From the NCBI GenBank assembly GCA_023301465.1, contig JALZUQ010000003.1:1-55187 (forward strand): a DNA stretch of 55,187 nt, read 5' to 3'. Source of the DNA: Oligoflexales bacterium. GTDB taxonomy: Bacteria > Bdellovibrionota_B > Oligoflexia > Oligoflexales > JALZUQ01. Made by a program: the position numbers and the translations under genes. Position 1 is the stretch's first letter. Every line of letters begins with the position of its first letter. Positions 16,708 through 29,282 of this stretch are shown one piece after another. A model generated the notes under the pieces. It was given only the letters and a program-made list of their open reading frames with translations, made no database searches and was not told where the DNA came from.

Positions 16708-19700
16708 ATGCATATTTATCTATTTTTATTATTGTTCGTTTTTACAACAGTTTCTTGTAAAAATATCAAAGAAGAAGAAACCAGACAACGTTACGGAGTT
16801 CAAAACTTCGGTAATAATGGTGATTCGATTGGTGTCGATGGAACGGATGGCGATGGTTTAGATGCTGGTGGTGTTGATAGTACCGGTGGCGATGGTTTAG
16901 ATGCTGGTGGTTCGGTATCAGATGGAGGTGCCGTCGGTGGTACTGTTAGTGATGGTGGAACAACAACCGGAACAAATTTTGGTTTGTCATCTGACGATAT
17001 ATTATTGACCGCTAATGGAATAGGGTCTGTTTATTCTGCAGAAGCAAATGAAAAGTTGACTATTGCATGGTCTGCATCAGAATTTAGAGAGTGTTTGGTC
17101 GAGCCTCTTGGGAAGTCGGGTTTGTCAGGAAATGACGAAATCACAATGGATAAAGCTTTTATTGTGATTGGTGCTACATGTCAAACGAATGATGGTCAAA
17201 CAAAATCAAAAACCCTTGTAGTTTTAAGAAGAGAAGACTCAACAACACCTACTACTGGTGGTGTTGCAGAAGTTATTAATTTATTTACTCCAACAGCTGT
17301 TGATGCAGGTAAAAATTTTGATATAAGTTGGAGTGCATTTGGATTTGATTCATGTGAAGTTATTCCATTAGATCAAAGTGGTTTAAGTGGAACGGCTACA
17401 ACTATGGTTACTACTGCAACACAGATATCTGTAGAATGTTTAAAAGATGAAGTAAAAACTATTGAGTCAAAAGTTATAAATGTAAATACAATTGATAAAC
17501 CAGAGATTACTGTTTTTATCAATGGTCAAAGTGGAAGTCCTGAAGTAGAAAAAGGACAAGATGTTTATATTTCTTGGGATGTGAAAAATTTAGGGACTGA
17601 AGGAAAATGTGATTTTTCGCCGAGTGCTGCTACAAAAGTATCAGATAATCGTGTGAAAATTAGTTCTATTCAAAGTGCTGTAGACGTTATTGTAAGCTGT
17701 GAAGGTTTAGGAGGGACAACTTCTGTTACAAAAAAAATTAATGTAAGAGATCCAGTCATTCCAATAAAGCCGATAGCTTCTTCACTATTAGTGAACAACG
17801 TAGCAGTGATTGACGAGAATATTAAGACTTTAAAAGTAAGAAAAGGTAGTGATTTATCAATTGTTTGGCAAAGTGTAGATGCTGAATCATGTGAACTTCG
17901 AGCAGGTAGTCTTACTGTCAATAATATTAATGGTAGCGAGAATTTAGACAATATTACTACAGAAACAAATGTAATTTTAGTATGTAGAGATTCAAGTGGT
18001 GCTTCTGTAAAAAGAGAAGTAAAAGTAGAGCTAGATGAATCCATTAACCTTGAAATTGTTTCTTTCTTAGCGAATGGTCAGGCTTCTGTGAAAATTATTC
18101 GTGGACAACCAGTGTCTTTACAGTGGGAATCAAAGGGTGCCAGTAATTGTATTGTTAGCCCGAGTGATCATGAGGGTGTATCAAATAATGTAAAAATAGA
18201 CAGTCTTGAAGAATCTACAAGTTTTGAATTAAAGTGTTTTCAAGGTGCTGAGCAAAAGCTTGCAGTTGTAACTGTAAATGTACTTGAGCCTTTTGAATTA
18301 AATCCATCTGCAGAATTGACAGTAAATGGTTCTGCAGCACCCGTTACGATTAATCCAGGAGATGATGTCGTTATTGCTTGGAGTGCTGACTTGTCGGGTA
18401 CTGAATGTGTTCTTTTGCCAAATATGCAAGTTACTAGAAGTACTACCGCTGCCGGTTTGACAGGTAATGTCACTATGAGAAACATAACAGTTCCTTTTGT
18501 ATCAACGCTATATTGTTACAACAAAAGTGGTTTTGATGTTAGTAATGTCAATGTAAATGTTCGCGGTTTTGAAAACCCTGCTAATATAACGAATGCTGAT
18601 TTAACCATTAACGGTAAAAAAGCTAGAGATCAGATCAACAAAGGTGAAAATGGGTTGTTTAGCTGGCAATCACAAAATGCAACAAAATGTCATTTTCTAA
18701 AAGATAAAATTGACCAATTAAATGGTAATGTTAACAGAACAAATGTCACAGAATCCGAGTTAGGGCTGGTCTATTGTTCAGGTGCAAGTGGCAGTGTTAT
18801 TGACGCGGCATATCTTGATACTGAAGATTACTCTGGTGGTGCTACTGCAAGCCTAACCGTGAATAACTCTGAAGGAAAAATAACAGTCAATTATGGTGAT
18901 ACAATTACACTGCGTTGGAATAGTTCAAACGCACAAAATTGTCATGTTCAAAATCTAGGAGATGTTGATTCAAGTGGTGAAGAAAGTATCGTTGTGAGTA
19001 ATAGTACTGTATTTCGCTTAAGATGTGTTAGTAGCGAAAATAATAATAAGTTGCAAGATATCGTGGTTGTAAATGTGAGGCCCAGAATTTTACCACCTTT
19101 AGATGCGACGGTTTCTCTTTTTGAACTAAAGAACAATGTGAAGACAAGTAATGAAGTAAATGCTGCACATAATGCTGCGATCACATTAGGTTGGGATTCT
19201 ACAAACTCTTCATCATGTCAGTTAGCATTTCGTATTGGAAATCAAGTTAATTTCACTAGTATTACTAGTTCTACACAAAAATCTGCTACTTTTAAAACAA
19301 CGAATAATGCACCAGATATAGAGTACCGAGTAACTTGTGCTGGAACAAATGGAAGTACGGCAACTTCACTCTTGAAGGTGTTAAGAGATTGTCCGAGCCA
19401 CGTAATGTTTACAACTATTACTTGGTATGCTGGTAACCAGGTAAACCCTGGAGGTTCAAGTACACTTCAAGGTGCAGATGATCTTTGTGTTTCAGCCGCT
19501 CGTAGTAGAGGGTTATGTAACAACCGAAGCTTCAAAGCAGTATTATCAAGCGGGCAAATAGAAGCAAAAAATAAAATTACAATCAATGGTGCAGTTTATA
19601 ATAATAGGTCGACAGGTCGTCAACTTATTGCAAATAATTCATCTTCTTTTTGGACAAACTCTGATTGGCCAACTTCAGCAAAATATTCAGAAACTGGACA

Positions 19701-19923
19701 AATAGCTCCATTACTATTTGCTGGAGCAGCTCAAGATAATAATGTTTGGACAGCTACAAATAATCTTGGTGGTTCGACTTCACTTCATTGTACAAACTGG
19801 ACTAGAACAACAGGCCGAGGAACTGCAGGATCAATTGCTGAAATTGATGATCGTTTTAGAGACGGTTCATTTCAATCTCAGGATTGCGGTAAATCAAAAC
19901 ATTTGTACTGCATGTCTCAATAA
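16708..19923 (+). CDS. Surface lipoprotein: nine Ig-like repeats with a DUF1554-like C-terminal domain
   Basis: 1071 residues. Lipoprotein signal with TTVSC (Cys17), then a Gly/Asp-rich linker (repeated GDGLDAGG). About nine repeats of 80-95 residues follow up to residue 895. Each has a strand with I-x-W-x-(S/A) and, 8-11 residues on, Cys, then a second Cys near its end, as expected for disulfide-bonded immunoglobulin-like sandwiches (for example LTIAWSASEFREC, VSLQWESKGASNC, ITLRWNSSNAQNC). The last 175 residues, with GADDLCVSAA, FKAVLSSG, SFWTNSD and a final CGKSKHLYCMSQ, resemble the DUF1554 domain of leptospiral lipoproteins. Likely an adhesin or surface stalk; ligand unknown. The hydrolase gene follows after two bases. 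Confidence 0.75.
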   Translation: MHIYLFLLLFVFTTVSCKNIKEEETRQRYGVQNFGNNGDSIGVDGTDGDGLDAGGVDSTGGDGLDAGGSVSDGGAVGGTVSDGGTTTGTNFGLSSDDILLTANGIGSVYSAEANEKLTIAWSASEFRECLVEPLGKSGLSGNDEITMDKAFIVIGATCQTNDGQTKSKTLVVLRREDSTTPTTGGVAEVINLFTPTAVDAGKNFDISWSAFGFDSCEVIPLDQSGLSGTATTMVTTATQISVECLKDEVKTIESKVINVNTIDKPEITVFINGQSGSPEVEKGQDVYISWDVKNLGTEGKCDFSPSAATKVSDNRVKISSIQSAVDVIVSCEGLGGTTSVTKKINVRDPVIPIKPIASSLLVNNVAVIDENIKTLKVRKGSDLSIVWQSVDAESCELRAGSLTVNNINGSENLDNITTETNVILVCRDSSGASVKREVKVELDESINLEIVSFLANGQASVKIIRGQPVSLQWESKGASNCIVSPSDHEGVSNNVKIDSLEESTSFELKCFQGAEQKLAVVTVNVLEPFELNPSAELTVNGSAAPVTINPGDDVVIAWSADLSGTECVLLPNMQVTRSTTAAGLTGNVTMRNITVPFVSTLYCYNKSGFDVSNVNVNVRGFENPANITNADLTINGKKARDQINKGENGLFSWQSQNATKCHFLKDKIDQLNGNVNRTNVTESELGLVYCSGASGSVIDAAYLDTEDYSGGATASLTVNNSEGKITVNYGDTITLRWNSSNAQNCHVQNLGDVDSSGEESIVVSNSTVFRLRCVSSENNNKLQDIVVVNVRPRILPPLDATVSLFELKNNVKTSNEVNAAHNAAITLGWDSTNSSSCQLAFRIGNQVNFTSITSSTQKSATFKTTNNAPDIEYRVTCAGTNGSTATSLLKVLRDCPSHVMFTTITWYAGNQVNPGGSSTLQGADDLCVSAARSRGLCNNRSFKAVLSSGQIEAKNKITINGAVYNNRSTGRQLIANNSSSFWTNSDWPTSAKYSETGQIAPLLFAGAAQDNNVWTATNNLGGSTSLHCTNWTRTTGRGTAGSIAEIDDRFRDGSFQSQDCGKSKHLYCMSQ

Positions 19924-21869: not shown

Positions 21870-22160
21870 TTAGACATTTCTATAAATAACCAGATCTCGG
21901 TTTTCATACCTTCCGATAAGGATATCTCGTCTTCGTGAGTTGCAAAATGCCACGTAGTTTTTGAATTGTGACTGATTGTCAAAGCACTTGATCATTTTCT
22001 TGCAGCTTGAACAAACCATCATCATGTTATGGGTGGAGTGCTGGGTCAGTGTATTATAACAACATTCAGGAACATTGCTTTCGCTAGTATGAATAGCCAC
22101 AGGCGGGGTGTTTTTTATCTGATTGTCTGTTGTGGGTTCCACTGTCATACCTTGTTTCAC
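21870..22160 (-). CDS. Possible small Cys-rich protein
   Basis: A 96-codon frame (GTG start) fills most of the otherwise empty gap between the vWA gene and lipB. The peptide has VCSSCKKMIKC, a CxxC pair with further Cys, and a basic C-terminal half, which could bind zinc or be disulfide-bonded. No ribosome-binding site is well placed; the ATG at 22148 is an alternative. It is downstream of lipB on the same strand (81 bases). It may be chance; I could find no other gene in this stretch. Confidence 0.35.
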   Translation of the reverse strand: MKQGMTVEPTTDNQIKNTPPVAIHTSESNVPECCYNTLTQHSTHNMMMVCSSCKKMIKCFDNQSQFKNYVAFCNSRRRDILIGRYENRDLVIYRNV

Positions 22161-22241: not shown

Positions 22242-22877
22242 TTATGAGGCTGCCGTAGTTGCAGACAGGATAGTTTCATAAAGTTTTTCTTTAAATAGCT
22301 TCATGTCGAGTTTTTTTCCTGTTTGAGACAGGTATGATGTCATTTTTACGCCTTGTAGGCCACATGGTAGGATTGTTTTAAAAGTGTCCAGTGTATTGTT
22401 TAAATTAATTGCGATTCCATGGTAGCTCACTCGTTTGGCTATTCTAATCCCAATAGAAGCAATTTTGGTTGAATCGTTTAACCAAACGCCGGCAGGGTCT
22501 AATTTTGGAAAACAGGGTAGTTCATATTGATTTAATGTTTTTGCTGTCGCATTGGCAAGCAGTTCAATTAAGCCTTTTGCACCTAAGTTTAAGTCTCTTA
22601 CCCTAAAAATTGGGTATACCACCAGTTGTCCTGGTTCGTGGATGGTTAATTTTCCACCACGTGTGGTGGGTACCACGTCGATGCCTTGATTTTTTAGCCA
22701 GTCAGGTGTGGCAATTAAATCAGAAGCATCAGAGTTTTTTCCCATGGTAACAACAGGAGGGTGCTCTACAAAAAGGCAGTAGCTCTGTCCAGAGCTTGCA
22801 GCTTTCTGGTGGAATTCTAATTGTTTCCTAAGAGCTTCATCATAGCGAAGCAAGCCTAATTCGACTTTTTCGATCAT
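22242..22877 (-). CDS. lipB: Octanoyl-[acyl carrier protein]:protein N-octanoyltransferase
   Basis: 211 residues, the family length. Moves octanoate from acyl carrier protein to lipoyl domains, the first step of lipoate assembly in the cytoplasm. RGGKLTIHEPGQLVVYPI (from residue 73) is the LipB signature, with Glu at the position usually held by Gly in YHGPGQ. The catalytic pair is Lys138 (STKIASIG) and Cys172 (LPCGLQG). It is the last gene of the ruvA-to-lipB run, six bases after the DHH phosphoesterase gene. No lipA is present in the window. Confidence 0.93.
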   Translation of the reverse strand: MIEKVELGLLRYDEALRKQLEFHQKAASSGQSYCLFVEHPPVVTMGKNSDASDLIATPDWLKNQGIDVVPTTRGGKLTIHEPGQLVVYPIFRVRDLNLGAKGLIELLANATAKTLNQYELPCFPKLDPAGVWLNDSTKIASIGIRIAKRVSYHGIAINLNNTLDTFKTILPCGLQGVKMTSYLSQTGKKLDMKLFKEKLYETILSATTAAS

Positions 22878-24168: not shown

Positions 24169-25353
24169 CTAAGAAGAAAAGTACTTCGATTTAATGTGCG
24201 TTATTAGTGACTTATAATTAATCTGTCGGTTGAAAATGTAAGCATTATAGGAACTTAAAGCCATATCTGTGATAGGTTCTGCCTTCCTCTTTGAGGCTTT
24301 TTCGATGGTTTTCTTGGAGAGAACCGCTACTAGTTTGATATTATCTCCAAGCTGGCTTTGTTGGGCTGTAATGAATTTTTTAAGTTGATGCTCATCTAGC
24401 TCGGCTACATAAACAATTTGATTGCCTTGGGTGATTTGAGTATCGGGGAAAATCCAGTTTTGATGCCCCAAACAAATAGGCGATAATGCTTCCTCAGTTT
24501 TTTGTTTGAACTCTTTTTTGAGCTGAGTTGTTAGTTCGGATTCTTCTTGTAGCTTGTCGATTTGATCAAGGTCTTTGAGTGGAGCTTTTAGGTCAAGCTT
24601 AAGACCAGCTTGGTCTCTGCTTATACTAATCTTTGACTCCAGCTCCCAATGAGGGATTTTCCACAAGCTTTTTAATAGGTGACTTAGTTTTTTGTTGGCT
24701 CTATAAGCTGCAATTTTTCCAGATTGCTTACAATCGATATCAATATGAGTGGATTGATCATTATGGGTTTTGATATGGCAGCGAATTTCATGAAAGCGAA
24801 TTTTTCTAAAGACCTCTTTAAGCAAGAACTTTTTAGAGTAGACTTTGATATTGATGTGGTCTGCATAAATTAATAAGCCTTGGTGCATTGCAAGGTTGTA
24901 AAAAGCAATAAATTCATCTTTGGACTTAAGAGAAAAGTCGTTTTTATGAAGATCAGTGGTTAAGTCTCCATAGATATCAGAGCAGAGCTGTTTTTCGAAA
25001 TTTGAGCCGTCTTCAAAGGTTTTTTGAAATTCTTCAAATGAGTCCCACTCATTTTCAGTTCTAAGCTTTTGTGCACTTTCAATCATTTGCAGTCTTATTT
25101 CTGACTCAATGCTGACGGGTTCTTTGAACTCACTTGCTCTATTTAATATACTTAAAGCACCGTCTTTTAGGTACTTTGAGCGAATCATGGTCCCGGCTTG
25201 ATTCTCAAGTTTTGTCTTGGATGTTTCTTTGCTTTCTGCGTAGAGCTCGAAAAGGTCGGCTAAGCCATTTTTCATGATAGTTTTCATGCTTTGTAGTTTT
25301 GGGAGTATGTTCCCATTTTTGATCTGGAATTTAATGCTACTTTTGGTAAGCAT
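24169..25353 (-). CDS. Bax1-like protein (DUF790), nuclease partner of XPB
   Basis: About 394 residues, no signal peptide. It follows the XPB-type helicase gene with a 17-base overlap, and its features fit DUF790/Bax1, the archaeal XPB-binding nuclease. An N-terminal segment FQIKNGNILPKL leads to LADLFELYAE, a middle region to FAFYNLAMHQGLL-like sequence, and a C-terminal nuclease-like part has WIFPDTQI, then VYVAELDE, recalling the PDF...EIVGFW segment of archaeal Bax1 in weakened form. In archaea Bax1 cuts DNA unwound by XPB during excision repair. Start ATG at 25353 with AGAAGG upstream, rather than the longer frame to 25413. Assignment rests on sequence pattern plus pairing. Confidence 0.65.
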   Translation of the reverse strand: MLTKSSIKFQIKNGNILPKLQSMKTIMKNGLADLFELYAESKETSKTKLENQAGTMIRSKYLKDGALSILNRASEFKEPVSIESEIRLQMIESAQKLRTENEWDSFEEFQKTFEDGSNFEKQLCSDIYGDLTTDLHKNDFSLKSKDEFIAFYNLAMHQGLLIYADHINIKVYSKKFLLKEVFRKIRFHEIRCHIKTHNDQSTHIDIDCKQSGKIAAYRANKKLSHLLKSLWKIPHWELESKISISRDQAGLKLDLKAPLKDLDQIDKLQEESELTTQLKKEFKQKTEEALSPICLGHQNWIFPDTQITQGNQIVYVAELDEHQLKKFITAQQSQLGDNIKLVAVLSKKTIEKASKRKAEPITDMALSSYNAYIFNRQINYKSLITHIKSKYFSS

Positions 25354-26722
25354 GGTGCTGCCTTCTACGTTCGTTGACGCCTTGTTCCATGGTGTTTTTA
25401 GCAACAATTTCATACAAGGTTGCTACTTTTCCGGGTTGGTGTCTGAGGATTCGACCGAGTCTTTGCACGTGCTCTCTTACAACGCTTGATCCAGAAACAA
25501 CTACCCCAACACTAGCTTCAGGCACATCAACCCCTTCATTGAGGACCTTTGAGGTCACTAGAACCTTGATGGTGCCGTTTCTAAAGAGCTCGATCATTCT
25601 TTTTCGTTCTTTTGGTTTGGTTTTGTGGGTGATCACTGCCAAAAAGAATTTACGGCCAATTTTATAAGCCATGGCGTTATCCTGGGTGAAAATAATTGTA
25701 CTCTCTTCTCCGTGATCTAAAAGAATTTTCCATACAGCGTCAATTTTTCCAGAGGCTGCGAGGGCGATGTTTTTTTGCTCTCTATAGGATTTCATGGCTT
25801 GCTTACCTCCCGGCAAGTAAGATGATTTTTTAATAAAATCCATCCACCCAGAAGCTTGGCTCATATTGATGTTTTTTGACCTTAGAAAACTAAGGTAAAT
25901 CCCTCGGTGGTAACGGTAGTCTTCTATTTCTTTATTGGTGAGTTCAATTTCGATCTTTCGGATATCATATGGTGAAAGAACTTTGGATTGCATGGCCTGG
26001 ATGTCTGCTTGATAACACAGAGGTCCAAGGTACTGAAAGATGATTTCTTCAAGTCCATCAGACCTTTCAACAGTTGCTGATAGTCCAAGCCTGAATGGTG
26101 CAATAGAGCGTATTGCAATTTGTCTGTTTTGTGGGGCAGGTAAGTGATGGCATTCATCCACGACTAAAAACCCAAAGCGGTCACCGATTTTATCAATAGT
26201 CAAGTAAGCACTATCGTAAGTGGCAACTGTTATGTCCTCAATTTCGTGCTTTCCTCCACCAAGTTGGCCAACTGAGACACCAAACAAATCAGTGATAGTT
26301 TTTTTCCATTGTAGAAGAAGGTCAATGGTTGGAACGACCACCAGAGTGGATCTTCCAATCTTTTCCATGGCAAGCATTGCAAGTATTGTTTTTCCGGCAC
26401 CAGTTGGAAGGCTTACAACGCCACGCATTTTGCTGGCAAACCATTTGTTGAGTGCTTTTTGTTGGTGAAAGCGTGGTGTAATGGGCTTTGTAAAATTGAG
26501 GGAAATCTTTTGATAAGAGCTTGCTTTGTCTTCTAGGAACTTAAGTGAGGAGTGTTCCACAAACTCCTCTACAATTCCACGGTACTCACAGGGTTGGCTT
26601 GAATAGCCTCCTGTAAATTTATTCTTTTGCCACCGCATTGGGCTGAGAAATTCGGGTAAAGCTTTGAGGTGTAACTCACCTGAAATAAACTCTAATGAAG
26701 TTTGAGTCGTTTGCTCACTCAT
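25337..26722 (-). CDS. XPB/Rad25-type superfamily 2 DNA helicase
   Basis: 461 residues. An N-terminal region of about 80 residues (LSPMRWQKNKFTGGY) precedes the motor: RFHQQKAL (Q-motif region), LPTGAGKT (Walker A, 105-112), VVDECHHL (Walker B, 188-194), LGLSATVERSDG (motif III and the position of the XPB RED motif), TSKVLNEGVDVP (motif V) and QRLGRILR (motif VI). The XPB family unwinds DNA for transcription initiation and nucleotide excision repair in eukaryotes and archaea; bacterial copies are scattered. Its overlap with a Bax1-like gene is the usual archaeal pairing. It overlaps the small membrane protein gene upstream by four bases (ATGA). Confidence 0.85.
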   Translation of the reverse strand: MSEQTTQTSLEFISGELHLKALPEFLSPMRWQKNKFTGGYSSQPCEYRGIVEEFVEHSSLKFLEDKASSYQKISLNFTKPITPRFHQQKALNKWFASKMRGVVSLPTGAGKTILAMLAMEKIGRSTLVVVPTIDLLLQWKKTITDLFGVSVGQLGGGKHEIEDITVATYDSAYLTIDKIGDRFGFLVVDECHHLPAPQNRQIAIRSIAPFRLGLSATVERSDGLEEIIFQYLGPLCYQADIQAMQSKVLSPYDIRKIEIELTNKEIEDYRYHRGIYLSFLRSKNINMSQASGWMDFIKKSSYLPGGKQAMKSYREQKNIALAASGKIDAVWKILLDHGEESTIIFTQDNAMAYKIGRKFFLAVITHKTKPKERKRMIELFRNGTIKVLVTSKVLNEGVDVPEASVGVVVSGSSVVREHVQRLGRILRHQPGKVATLYEIVAKNTMEQGVNERRRQHHAYQK

Positions 26723-26947: not shown

Positions 26948-27976
26948 TTACTCAGTGCTTTCTAAGTTAAGGCTTGCACCTTTTGGGGTAAGGCTGCGAC
27001 CTCTAGGTCCACGGCTCACATAGCCTTTGTGAACTAAGTATGGTTCATAAACGTCTTCAAGGGTTTGTCTGTTTTCTGCAAGTGTTGACGCAATTGTTTC
27101 AATTCCAACAGGGCCACCATCATAGCGATGTTTGATAGTGGTCAGAATCAGTCGATCCATTGGATCGAGGCCATTTGCGTCAATTGCTAGTTTCTCAAGG
27201 GTTTGGCTGACAAACGCCTTGCTTACTTTGGTTTGGTCCTCATAAATCGCAAAGTCTCTAATGCGTTTAATCAGTCTATTAGCAATTCGAGGTGTTCCTC
27301 TTGATCTTGATGCAAGAAGTTGAGTTGCTTCAGCGTCAATATCCAAGTTCAATAATTTCGATGATCTTTCTAATATTTTGCTCATTGCACCAGTTTCGTA
27401 AAACTCAAGCCTCTCTTGAATTCCAAAGCGATCTAATAATGGCGAAGAAATTTTTGCGAGTCTCGTGGTAGCACCCACCAAGGTAAATGGTGCGACTGGC
27501 ATGTTGACGGTACGTGCAGCTGCACCTTGACCAACGACAATATCCATCGAAAAATCTTCCATGGCACTATATAGAATTTCTTCTATGTGGATAGGAACGC
27601 GGTGAATCTCATCAATAAATAAAACAGAGCGAGGTTCTAAGCTTGCAACAATGCCAGCAAGATCACCAGGTTTATCAAGAGAAGGCCCGCTGATTTGTTG
27701 AAAGGGAGCTCCAAGTTCTGAGGCAATAATCCTTGAAAGTGTTGTCTTCCCTAGTCCCGGCGGACCATGGAAGATGACATGATCTAGTGCTTCTTGTCGT
27801 TTTCGAGCAGAAGCAATATATACCTTAAGGTTTTCGATAGTTTTTCTTTGGCCGGGAAACTCATCGAAACTAAGTGGTCTTAACTTGTTTTGATTGAAGT
27901 CAACTTGTTGGAAGCTAGGTCCAACAATACGCTCCACAATTGGGCTATCAGTTAAATGGTCTTCTTCGTGACTCAA
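26948..27976 (-). CDS. ruvB: Holliday junction branch migration helicase RuvB
   Basis: 342 residues, the family length. AAA+ motor that drives branch migration with RuvA. Walker A GPPGLGKT (71-78), Walker B LFIDEIHR (119-126), sensor GATTRLAKISSPLLDRFG, and the C-terminal winged-helix with RGRSLTPKG are all present. The start is TTG at 27976, with GGAGG five bases upstream, overlapping the ruvA stop by four bases. No ruvC is in the window. Confidence 0.96.
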   Translation of the reverse strand: MSHEEDHLTDSPIVERIVGPSFQQVDFNQNKLRPLSFDEFPGQRKTIENLKVYIASARKRQEALDHVIFHGPPGLGKTTLSRIIASELGAPFQQISGPSLDKPGDLAGIVASLEPRSVLFIDEIHRVPIHIEEILYSAMEDFSMDIVVGQGAAARTVNMPVAPFTLVGATTRLAKISSPLLDRFGIQERLEFYETGAMSKILERSSKLLNLDIDAEATQLLASRSRGTPRIANRLIKRIRDFAIYEDQTKVSKAFVSQTLEKLAIDANGLDPMDRLILTTIKHRYDGGPVGIETIASTLAENRQTLEDVYEPYLVHKGYVSRGPRGRSLTPKGASLNLESTE

Positions 27977-28680
27977 AAGACCTCCCTGGGATCAACAGTT
28001 TTTTTGGGTGCTTTTCTAAATTGTTGTAGAGCTTTTTTGAGAAAAGTAGAAAAATCTTGGTCTTGTGAAGCCTCTTCAGTGAAATCAATTTTTGAAATAG
28101 CTTTTGAGATATCTTTGCTTTTGTAGCCAAGGTTTTCGAGTGCAGATACTATGTCACCACGCATGCTGTGGTCTTCTTGTGCTGGTATGCTTTTTCCGTC
28201 AAAGCCAAAGTGATCAAAGTCTAGTTGAATATGCTTTAGTAAGCTCGGGCATTCTGAGTCATTTGAATTTTGTGGCCACTTGGACTTTTTGTTCTTGAGG
28301 TCTACAATAATTTTTTGAGCTAAAGTTGGCCCAATTCCACCAACAGAAGAGAACACTTCATGTTTACCGTGCTCTGCGGCATATTGCATGAGTTTAGGGC
28401 TAATAGTGGAAAGTGCTGCTAATGCGATTTTTGGTCCCACTTTATTGATGCTGATCAGTAGCTTGAATATTTGGCGGTCACTAGTTGAGCGAAATCCGTA
28501 GAGTTGTAAGGCGTCTTCTCTGACTCTAGTGTAAACCCACAGCTCTACTTCGCCCCCGACTTCTCTGTGGTTGAGCAATACTGATGTAGGTACCTCGACT
28601 TCATACCCAACCCCACCAACATCTATGGTAAGAGAGTTTTGTGCTCTAAAACGAATTTTACCTTTGAGGTAAGATATCAT
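27973..28680 (-). CDS. ruvA: Holliday junction DNA-binding protein RuvA
   Basis: 235 residues, somewhat longer than the usual 190-205 because of an enlarged acidic linker before domain III. The OB-fold N-terminus begins MISYLKGKI; helix-hairpin-helix motifs are at about 70-130 (VGPKIALAAL and VGGIGPTLAQKI); domain III has ALENLGYKSKDISKAI. RuvA tetramers bind Holliday junctions and recruit RuvB. ATG at 28680 overlaps the stop of the HAMP-like gene, with GGAG seven bases upstream. Confidence 0.95.
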   Translation of the reverse strand: MISYLKGKIRFRAQNSLTIDVGGVGYEVEVPTSVLLNHREVGGEVELWVYTRVREDALQLYGFRSTSDRQIFKLLISINKVGPKIALAALSTISPKLMQYAAEHGKHEVFSSVGGIGPTLAQKIIVDLKNKKSKWPQNSNDSECPSLLKHIQLDFDHFGFDGKSIPAQEDHSMRGDIVSALENLGYKSKDISKAISKIDFTEEASQDQDFSTFLKKALQQFRKAPKKTVDPREVF

Positions 28681-29282
28681 GAGTGCTCTCCAATGCTTTT
28701 GCTCCAGTGTTCAACCATGAGTTTTATTTTTGTTTCTACCTCATTTAGCTCGTCGGAATTCAATTTTTGATTTGCTTTTTGAACTTGTGATAATAGTTTT
28801 TCGAGTTTTGAGATGTCGTCCCTTGTTTTGTCAGCAAGTTGTGAAGTTGCATGATTGATATTTCTCATTAAGTATTTTAACTCATCATTTTTACGAAGTT
28901 TTAACTCACCAAAAAAGTTTCCGTGACCAAGTAGTCTGAGTTTTCTCACCACAGAATATAATGGGCCAGAAATTCTATGGGAGAGATAAAGCCCCATTAG
29001 ACCCAGAGAAAGCATATTGGTAAGTAGTGCTACAACCATGGCTAGCATAATGGGAGTTGGAAGAAATTTGGGTATTTTGAGGATTTCAAATTTGTAGAGT
29101 GGCCATAATAATACAAAAGAAGTTACAGCTGTTGATACTAACCCAACTAAGATGGATAGTTTTATGATTCGAAACTGAAAATCCCAGTCAAGTAAAACGG
29201 TTTTTTTATGTTTATGTTGTGTGTTTTTGGCGGTAGTGTTCAAGTGCAAATTCCAAGATAATCTTGCTATAATGTACCTCAA
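28677..29282 (-). CDS. HAMP-like membrane protein
   Basis: 201 residues. Two membrane helices (about 38-60 and 76-101) flank a short outer loop; then YLSHRISGPLYSVVRKLRLLGHGNF matches the start of a HAMP linker, and the rest is a coiled coil. No kinase, cyclase or methyl-acceptor output domain follows. It is a signalling-type stub, and its place as first gene before ruvA is unusual. Start is TTG at 29282 with AAGG five bases upstream; no in-frame ATG precedes the first helix. Confidence 0.7.
   Translation of the reverse strand: MRYIIARLSWNLHLNTTAKNTQHKHKKTVLLDWDFQFRIIKLSILVGLVSTAVTSFVLLWPLYKFEILKIPKFLPTPIMLAMVVALLTNMLSLGLMGLYLSHRISGPLYSVVRKLRLLGHGNFFGELKLRKNDELKYLMRNINHATSQLADKTRDDISKLEKLLSQVQKANQKLNSDELNEVETKIKLMVEHWSKSIGEHS

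Follow-up and report, generated by a model that had tools for sequence, protein, structure and literature searches.

The window analysed here comprises 55,187 nucleotides (positions 1 to 55,187 of contig JALZUQ010000003.1, assembly GCA_023301465.1) from an Oligoflexales bacterium, and contains a closely spaced run of minus-strand genes (Table 1). The ORF coordinates agree with the earlier note, which had described ruvA, ruvB, xpb and bax1 as a single minus-strand run and had reported a 17-base overlap between xpb and bax1; this overlap lies at 25337–25353, and both ORFs are intact. The 225-base interval between ruvB and xpb is filled by an ORF encoding a 74-residue membrane protein, whose stop overlaps the ATG of xpb by 4 bases, and the run is therefore closely packed. 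All its genes overlap or lie no more than 67 bases apart, the DHH gene beginning 67 bases downstream of bax1. Judged from this packing, one transcript for the whole run is plausible. Scans of the run for promoters (21 versus 18.1 ± 4.5 in shuffled sequences) and terminators (6 versus 6.7 ± 2.9) gave no excess and are thus uninformative on this point. The HAMP-like membrane protein is also conserved upstream of ruvA in five loci of the order.

Table 1. Features of the minus-strand run and of the Bax1 protein, with positions in the window
Feature	Position	Strand	Remarks
HAMP-like membrane protein	28677-29282	-	directly 5' of ruvA; weak WalK/SiaA matches
ruvA	27973-28680	-	TIGR00084 above cut-off; neighbour
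ruvB, Holliday junction branch migration helicase	26948-27976	-	TIGR00635 and NF000868 above cut-off; neighbour
Two-TM membrane ORF, 74 aa	26719-26943	-	between ruvB and xpb
xpb, archaeal-type XPB helicase, 461 aa	25337-26722	-	matches A. fulgidus XPB, 319 bits
bax1, DUF790/Bax1 family, 394 aa	24169-25353	-	ATG at 25353; PF05626 match
Bax1 N-terminal predicted XPB-binding site	24895-24972	-	Y128, D130, Y152 and N153 kept; T at 132
Bax1 nuclease core	24400-24537	-	E273, P303-D304 and E318 kept; FHRW after E318-L319 missing; 90-relative alignment
DHH/DHHA1-type phosphoesterase-like protein, 405 aa	22884-24101	-	both Pfam domains just under gathering cut-off
lipB, lipoyl(octanoyl) transferase	22242-22877	-	TIGR00214 above cut-off; neighbour

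Three further proteins in the window deserve mention in their own right. The DHH/DHHA1 protein is 58–76% identical across the order, which makes it more conserved than xpb or ruvB, and has no sequence match in the PDB. A small cysteine-rich ORF (21870–22160, minus strand; CCYNTL...CSSCKKMI) adjoins lipB, and a similar ORF adjoins lipB at another locus (L028, 4684–4965). On the plus strand, positions 16708–19923 encode a 1071-residue protein that resembles a secreted lipoprotein, contains many repeated segments and matches no Pfam family.

The best solved match to the xpb product is A. fulgidus XPB (E=3.8e-94, residues 37–454), and S. tokodaii XPBII is matched with E=7e-83. As to an N-terminal damage recognition domain, residues 1–36 have no match, the alignment starting at residue 37; from there, the alignment to both archaeal proteins shows no large gap, and the ThM region is ungapped. 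Motif I (TGAGKT) and motif II (DECHH) are present. The SF2 motor residues (the Walker lysine, the D, E and H of motif II and the arginine of motif VI) are kept here and in 101–102 of 102 aligned XPBs. The equivalent of the RED motif reads RSD; most of the 102 aligned relatives retain its R and D but differ in the residue between them, and S. tokodaii XPB has RDD (PMC7672443). Against the NCBIfam equivalog NF045503 the protein scores 192 bits, under the cut-off of 610 bits; it lies outside this equivalog, yet is plainly an XPB homologue. Its end branch in the XPB tree is 0.67, compared with a median of 0.2. Because the match to the archaeal XPBs runs gap-free through the thumb, the sequence groups the protein with the Bax1-binding XPBs of archaeal type. 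It is not of the type found in Mycobacterium tuberculosis, whose XPB is likewise a bacterial XPB helicase but has a eukaryote-like N-terminal domain, no ThM and no reported Bax1 partner (PMC3353954).

A search of the 394-residue protein with the DUF790/Bax1 model, as the earlier note had proposed, gave 71.5 bits for PF05626 (gathering cut-off 28.8 bits, E=7.6e-20), and this is the sole DUF790 protein in its genome. The NCBIfam equivalog NF053694 was matched with 26 bits (E=3.8e-6), under its 500-bit cut-off. A plain phmmer search against the PDB returned no match for Bax1, so that an alignment profile and the predicted fold were needed. The profile, built from this protein and 39 bacterial relatives, matches chains 8gy8, 6p4o, 6p66, 6p4f and 6p4w with E-values of 2e-53 to 2e-45. 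A single-chain AlphaFold2 model computed on the relatives' alignment has a mean pLDDT of 86 and a pTM of 0.76. Bax1 chains take all of the first eight places among its PDB matches (E from 2e-20 to 5e-17), with the next best at E=2e-3, and its TM-scores to Bax1 structures are 0.52–0.58 on the query. In the predicted XPB-binding site, the four retained residues share their numbering with the residues mutated in TaBax1 (PMC7293015). A peptide-pattern search of the genome contigs for close relatives of this Bax1 found none. Pfam, the PDB profile, the predicted fold and the conserved pairing described below thus bear out the identification of an XPB–Bax1 pair in the earlier note, which had named a missing DUF790 match, a model unlike Bax1 or an unconserved pair as evidence against it; on each of these three points the opposite was found.

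The catalytic acids of AfBax1 are E275, D305 and E318 (PMC7293015), and all three are kept here, as E273, D304 and E318, with nearly the same spacing. In the model, E273 lies at the start of a helix, D304 at the start of a strand after FP, and E318 at the end of the next strand. Both the PD aspartate and the motif III glutamate are conserved in 89 of the 91 rows of the Bax1 alignment, this protein included. The remainder of motif III departs from the family: in the alignment, F is found at +2 in 80 rows of 91, H at +3 in 76 and W at +5 in 79, whereas here the motif reads AEL-DEHQLKK, retaining the acid and lacking the four-residue FHRW segment. Furthermore, the conserved arginine of the helix after motif III is replaced by F, which two lysines immediately precede; this helix is the proposed new site of the catalytic lysine in the DUF790 family (PMC1913061). 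The earlier note had called the motif weakened, and its reading of FPDT...AEL is correct, with FHRW and the helix arginine lost. Its comparison with the archaeal EIVGFW was misleading, because most bacterial Bax1 proteins near this one carry ELFH(R/P)WH instead. A minority have EIVGFW or similar forms, and some of these accompany a second, more distant XPB type: such a pair, with an EIVGFW/EIVGYW-type motif, occurs in some Oligoflexales (L025, L049 and L050, in genomes G004, G036 and G032), at least two of which have the other type of pair as well.

Since the acids are kept while FHRW and the helix arginine are lost, we read the active site as intact in its catalytic residues and altered in its surroundings. 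The departure is real, but it does not prove that activity is lost. The protein also evolves unusually fast. Pairwise identities of Bax1 and XPB correlate with r=0.88 over 4371 pairs, a value to which shared ancestry contributes, and this Bax1 has the lowest mean residual against XPB of 94 sequences (-10.0). Where the XPBs are 48–58% identical, this Bax1 averages 18.7% identity (n=49) and other Bax1 pairs average 30.3% (sd 5.0, n=2945); the pairs are not independent, and all these identity figures are descriptions rather than tests. In a quick Bax1 tree, which serves for branch lengths only and not for the placement of this protein, the terminal branch leading to it measures 5.78 changes per column (median 0.4). 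The long branch and the low residual could mean relaxed constraint. Because Bax1 evolves so fast and the lost FHRW is part of motif III, a change in the rate or specificity of its nuclease is probable and outright loss is not certain, a reading of the domain that draws on one single-chain model.

A more radical possibility is that Bax1 has lost its nuclease activity altogether and persists as a non-cutting regulator or scaffold of XPB, its N-terminal XPB-binding domain being kept. Consistent with this, it is the fastest-evolving Bax1 of the 94, neither the FHRW segment nor the helix arginine is present, and it retains Y128, D130, Y152 and N153 in the N-terminal region. Relatives within the order point the same way. 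In both genomes of family f6 (G006 and G012) the aligned D/E pair is absent from Bax1, and in G001, the sole other genome of the same family as the present one, a 221-residue ORF overlapping an intact xpb (L053:162-827, minus strand) matches the N-terminal region of Bax1 only (hhalign E=8e-6, probability 84%; about 0.2% in three shuffles). That contig, however, ends 161 bases past the stop of the short ORF, so the shortening itself may reflect a frameshift or an assembly fault. In the present protein, moreover, E273, D304 and E318 are kept at near-archaeal spacing, which is not what random decay would tend to leave behind, and the ORF has its full length and a confidently folded model. We accordingly regard a complete loss of cutting as unlikely, if a serious contender. 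A broader version, in which Bax1 proteins of Oligoflexales have repeatedly changed from nucleases into partners of XPB that no longer cut, with the active site lost in f6, the nuclease domain lost in G001 and this Bax1 as an intermediate, strikes us as doubtful; if true, such a natural series would separate the regulation of XPB by Bax1 from DNA cleavage.

The earlier note had also presented the pair as unusual for a bacterium, which is not supported. XPB is present in 29 of 38 genomes of the order and DUF790 in 28 of 38; across the phylum, 39 of 58 genomes carry DUF790. Among the 80 nearest named bacterial XPB loci, which are not a census, a Bax1 ORF follows XPB on the same strand in 72: within 300 bp in 69 and within 20 bp in 54, with overlap in 37, the other three (L066, L087 and L120) being further off. 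These 80 loci come from Lentisphaerota, Poribacteria, Myxococcota, SAR324, Magnetococcales, Planctomycetota and others. The pairs of Lentisphaerota, Poribacteria, Myxococcota, Planctomycetota, Magnetococcales and other Oligoflexales share the gene order and short overlap seen here, and their XPBs are 43–58% identical to this one. Their Bax1 proteins, in contrast, carry ELFH(R/P)WH and are only 14–22% identical to the present protein, which is without FHRW. One record, L083 (BNCN01000001.1), is labelled Comamonas sp. KCTC 72670, yet both trees place its XPB and Bax1 within Myxococcaceae, and its label may be wrong or the sequence contaminated.

A 2005 survey described DUF790 as almost confined to archaea and cyanobacteria (PMC1189080), and a 2012 paper stated that no bacterial XPB–Bax1 complex had been identified (PMC3353954). 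In the open-access literature we found no bacterial XPB–Bax1 complex and no experiment on a bacterial pair, which is not proof of novelty; all the Bax1 biochemistry and structures found there are archaeal. What the locus holds is a divergent example of a known pair, and the bacterial branch to which it belongs is widespread and apparently unstudied.

The position of the pair beside ruvAB had led the earlier note to suggest a combined repair unit. Such a unit, coupling Holliday junction branch migration to excision, would fit the shared strand and close packing at this locus. It would also fit the presence of ruvB beside the pair in 7 of the 29 XPB-bearing genomes, which represent four families (G000, G002, G017, G024, G025, G032 and G036, with G002 inferred across a contig break and the count limited by contig ends in some other genomes). 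The survey of relatives that the note had proposed speaks against it, since ruvB is not beside the pair in 22 of the 29. In 13 genomes the 74-residue ORF immediately precedes the DHH gene and nothing intervenes, xpb being elsewhere (10 genomes) or not found (3), so that the two genes flanking the pair here are direct neighbours there. Likewise, ruvB and the DHH gene lie 1.4–5.2 kb apart on one contig in seven genomes that have no pair between them. The run includes lipB here, and the same stretch in relatives carries uppP, metK and truB-like genes (named by eye from the sequence), while RuvC is encoded elsewhere in the genome. The order ruvA–ruvB–xpb recurs in a Lentisphaeraceae locus (L067), but there two genes intervene between ruvB and xpb and no Bax1 follows, so that it offers weak support for a functional link. 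Taken together, these observations make a combined unit very improbable. They are most simply read as an old neighbourhood of ruvAB, the 74-residue ORF and the DHH gene in which xpb–bax1 is present, in some lineages, as a two-gene cassette; the nearness of the pair to ruvAB is then an inherited location and looks like an accident of position.

The small membrane protein upstream of xpb belongs to a family with two TM segments and the pattern A..FI.LI..GN.W......P.W, found in 29 of 38 Oligoflexales genomes and without a convincing match in Pfam, NCBIfam or the PDB. It lies upstream of xpb in 15 genomes of the order, and wherever its context was read (every one of the 29 but G006) it adjoins xpb or the DHH gene. 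We considered it as a third component of the pair and rejected this, given the 13 genomes in which it directly precedes the DHH gene and xpb is absent from that position; we read it as a gene conserved beside the DHH gene, not as an XPB component. In Lentisphaerota a different small membrane protein (YPNWKRG ... AFRPxK) lies upstream of xpb (L064, L066, L068, L084, L095, L103, L108, L109, L111, L112, L117, L128 and L133). Homology between these small TM ORFs and the Oligoflexales 74-residue ORF was undetected (hhalign probability 0.8%).

We consider it likely that the locus encodes a bacterial XPB–Bax1 helicase–nuclease pair that acts as in archaea, carried as a two-gene cassette and including an altered Bax1. 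From the family membership, pairing, helicase motifs, catalytic acids and predicted Bax1 fold seen in sequence and model, we infer by analogy a complex that cleaves DNA in repair. The N-terminal domain of Bax1 would dock on the thumb and the second motor domain of XPB, as in archaea. XPB would translocate on duplex DNA and open forks or bubbles, and the PD-(D/E)XK-like C-terminal domain of Bax1 would cut next to the junction. UvrB, UvrC and RuvC were all found in the same genome, and the pair would therefore be an addition to bacterial repair, working beside the standard systems and not instead of them. That it is an anti-phage or other defence module is hardly credible: helicase–nuclease pairs are frequent in defence, XPB scores 216 bits against the PADLOC PbeA helicase models, and the pair is patchy in presence and variable in location within the order, but XPB scores higher against archaeal XPB (319 bits), Bax1 has no PADLOC match, the neighbours are housekeeping rather than defence genes, and the XPB relatives of the order mostly cluster together in the tree.

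Among the closest known systems are the archaeal XPB–Bax1 pairs of A. fulgidus, S. tokodaii and T. acidophilum (PDB: 6p66, 6p4f, 6p4o and 6p4w), whose genes are likewise adjacent. Common to these and to the pair described here are the XPB motor domains with the ThM, the N-terminal docking residues, the E/D/E core and the predicted fold. The present pair differs in having RSD at the RED motif and, in motif III, AEL-DEHQ without FHRW or GFW. Its Bax1 ends at 394 residues, whereas AfBax1 has 468 and a long C-terminal domain, and its host also has UvrB and UvrC.

Bacterial XPB–Bax1 pairs thus occur in many phyla and have their own form of motif III (ELFHxWH). Tractable hosts among these bacteria, such as myxobacteria, could show the role of XPB–Bax1 in vivo, and the divergent Bax1 described here would be useful mainly to test which parts of Bax1 are needed.
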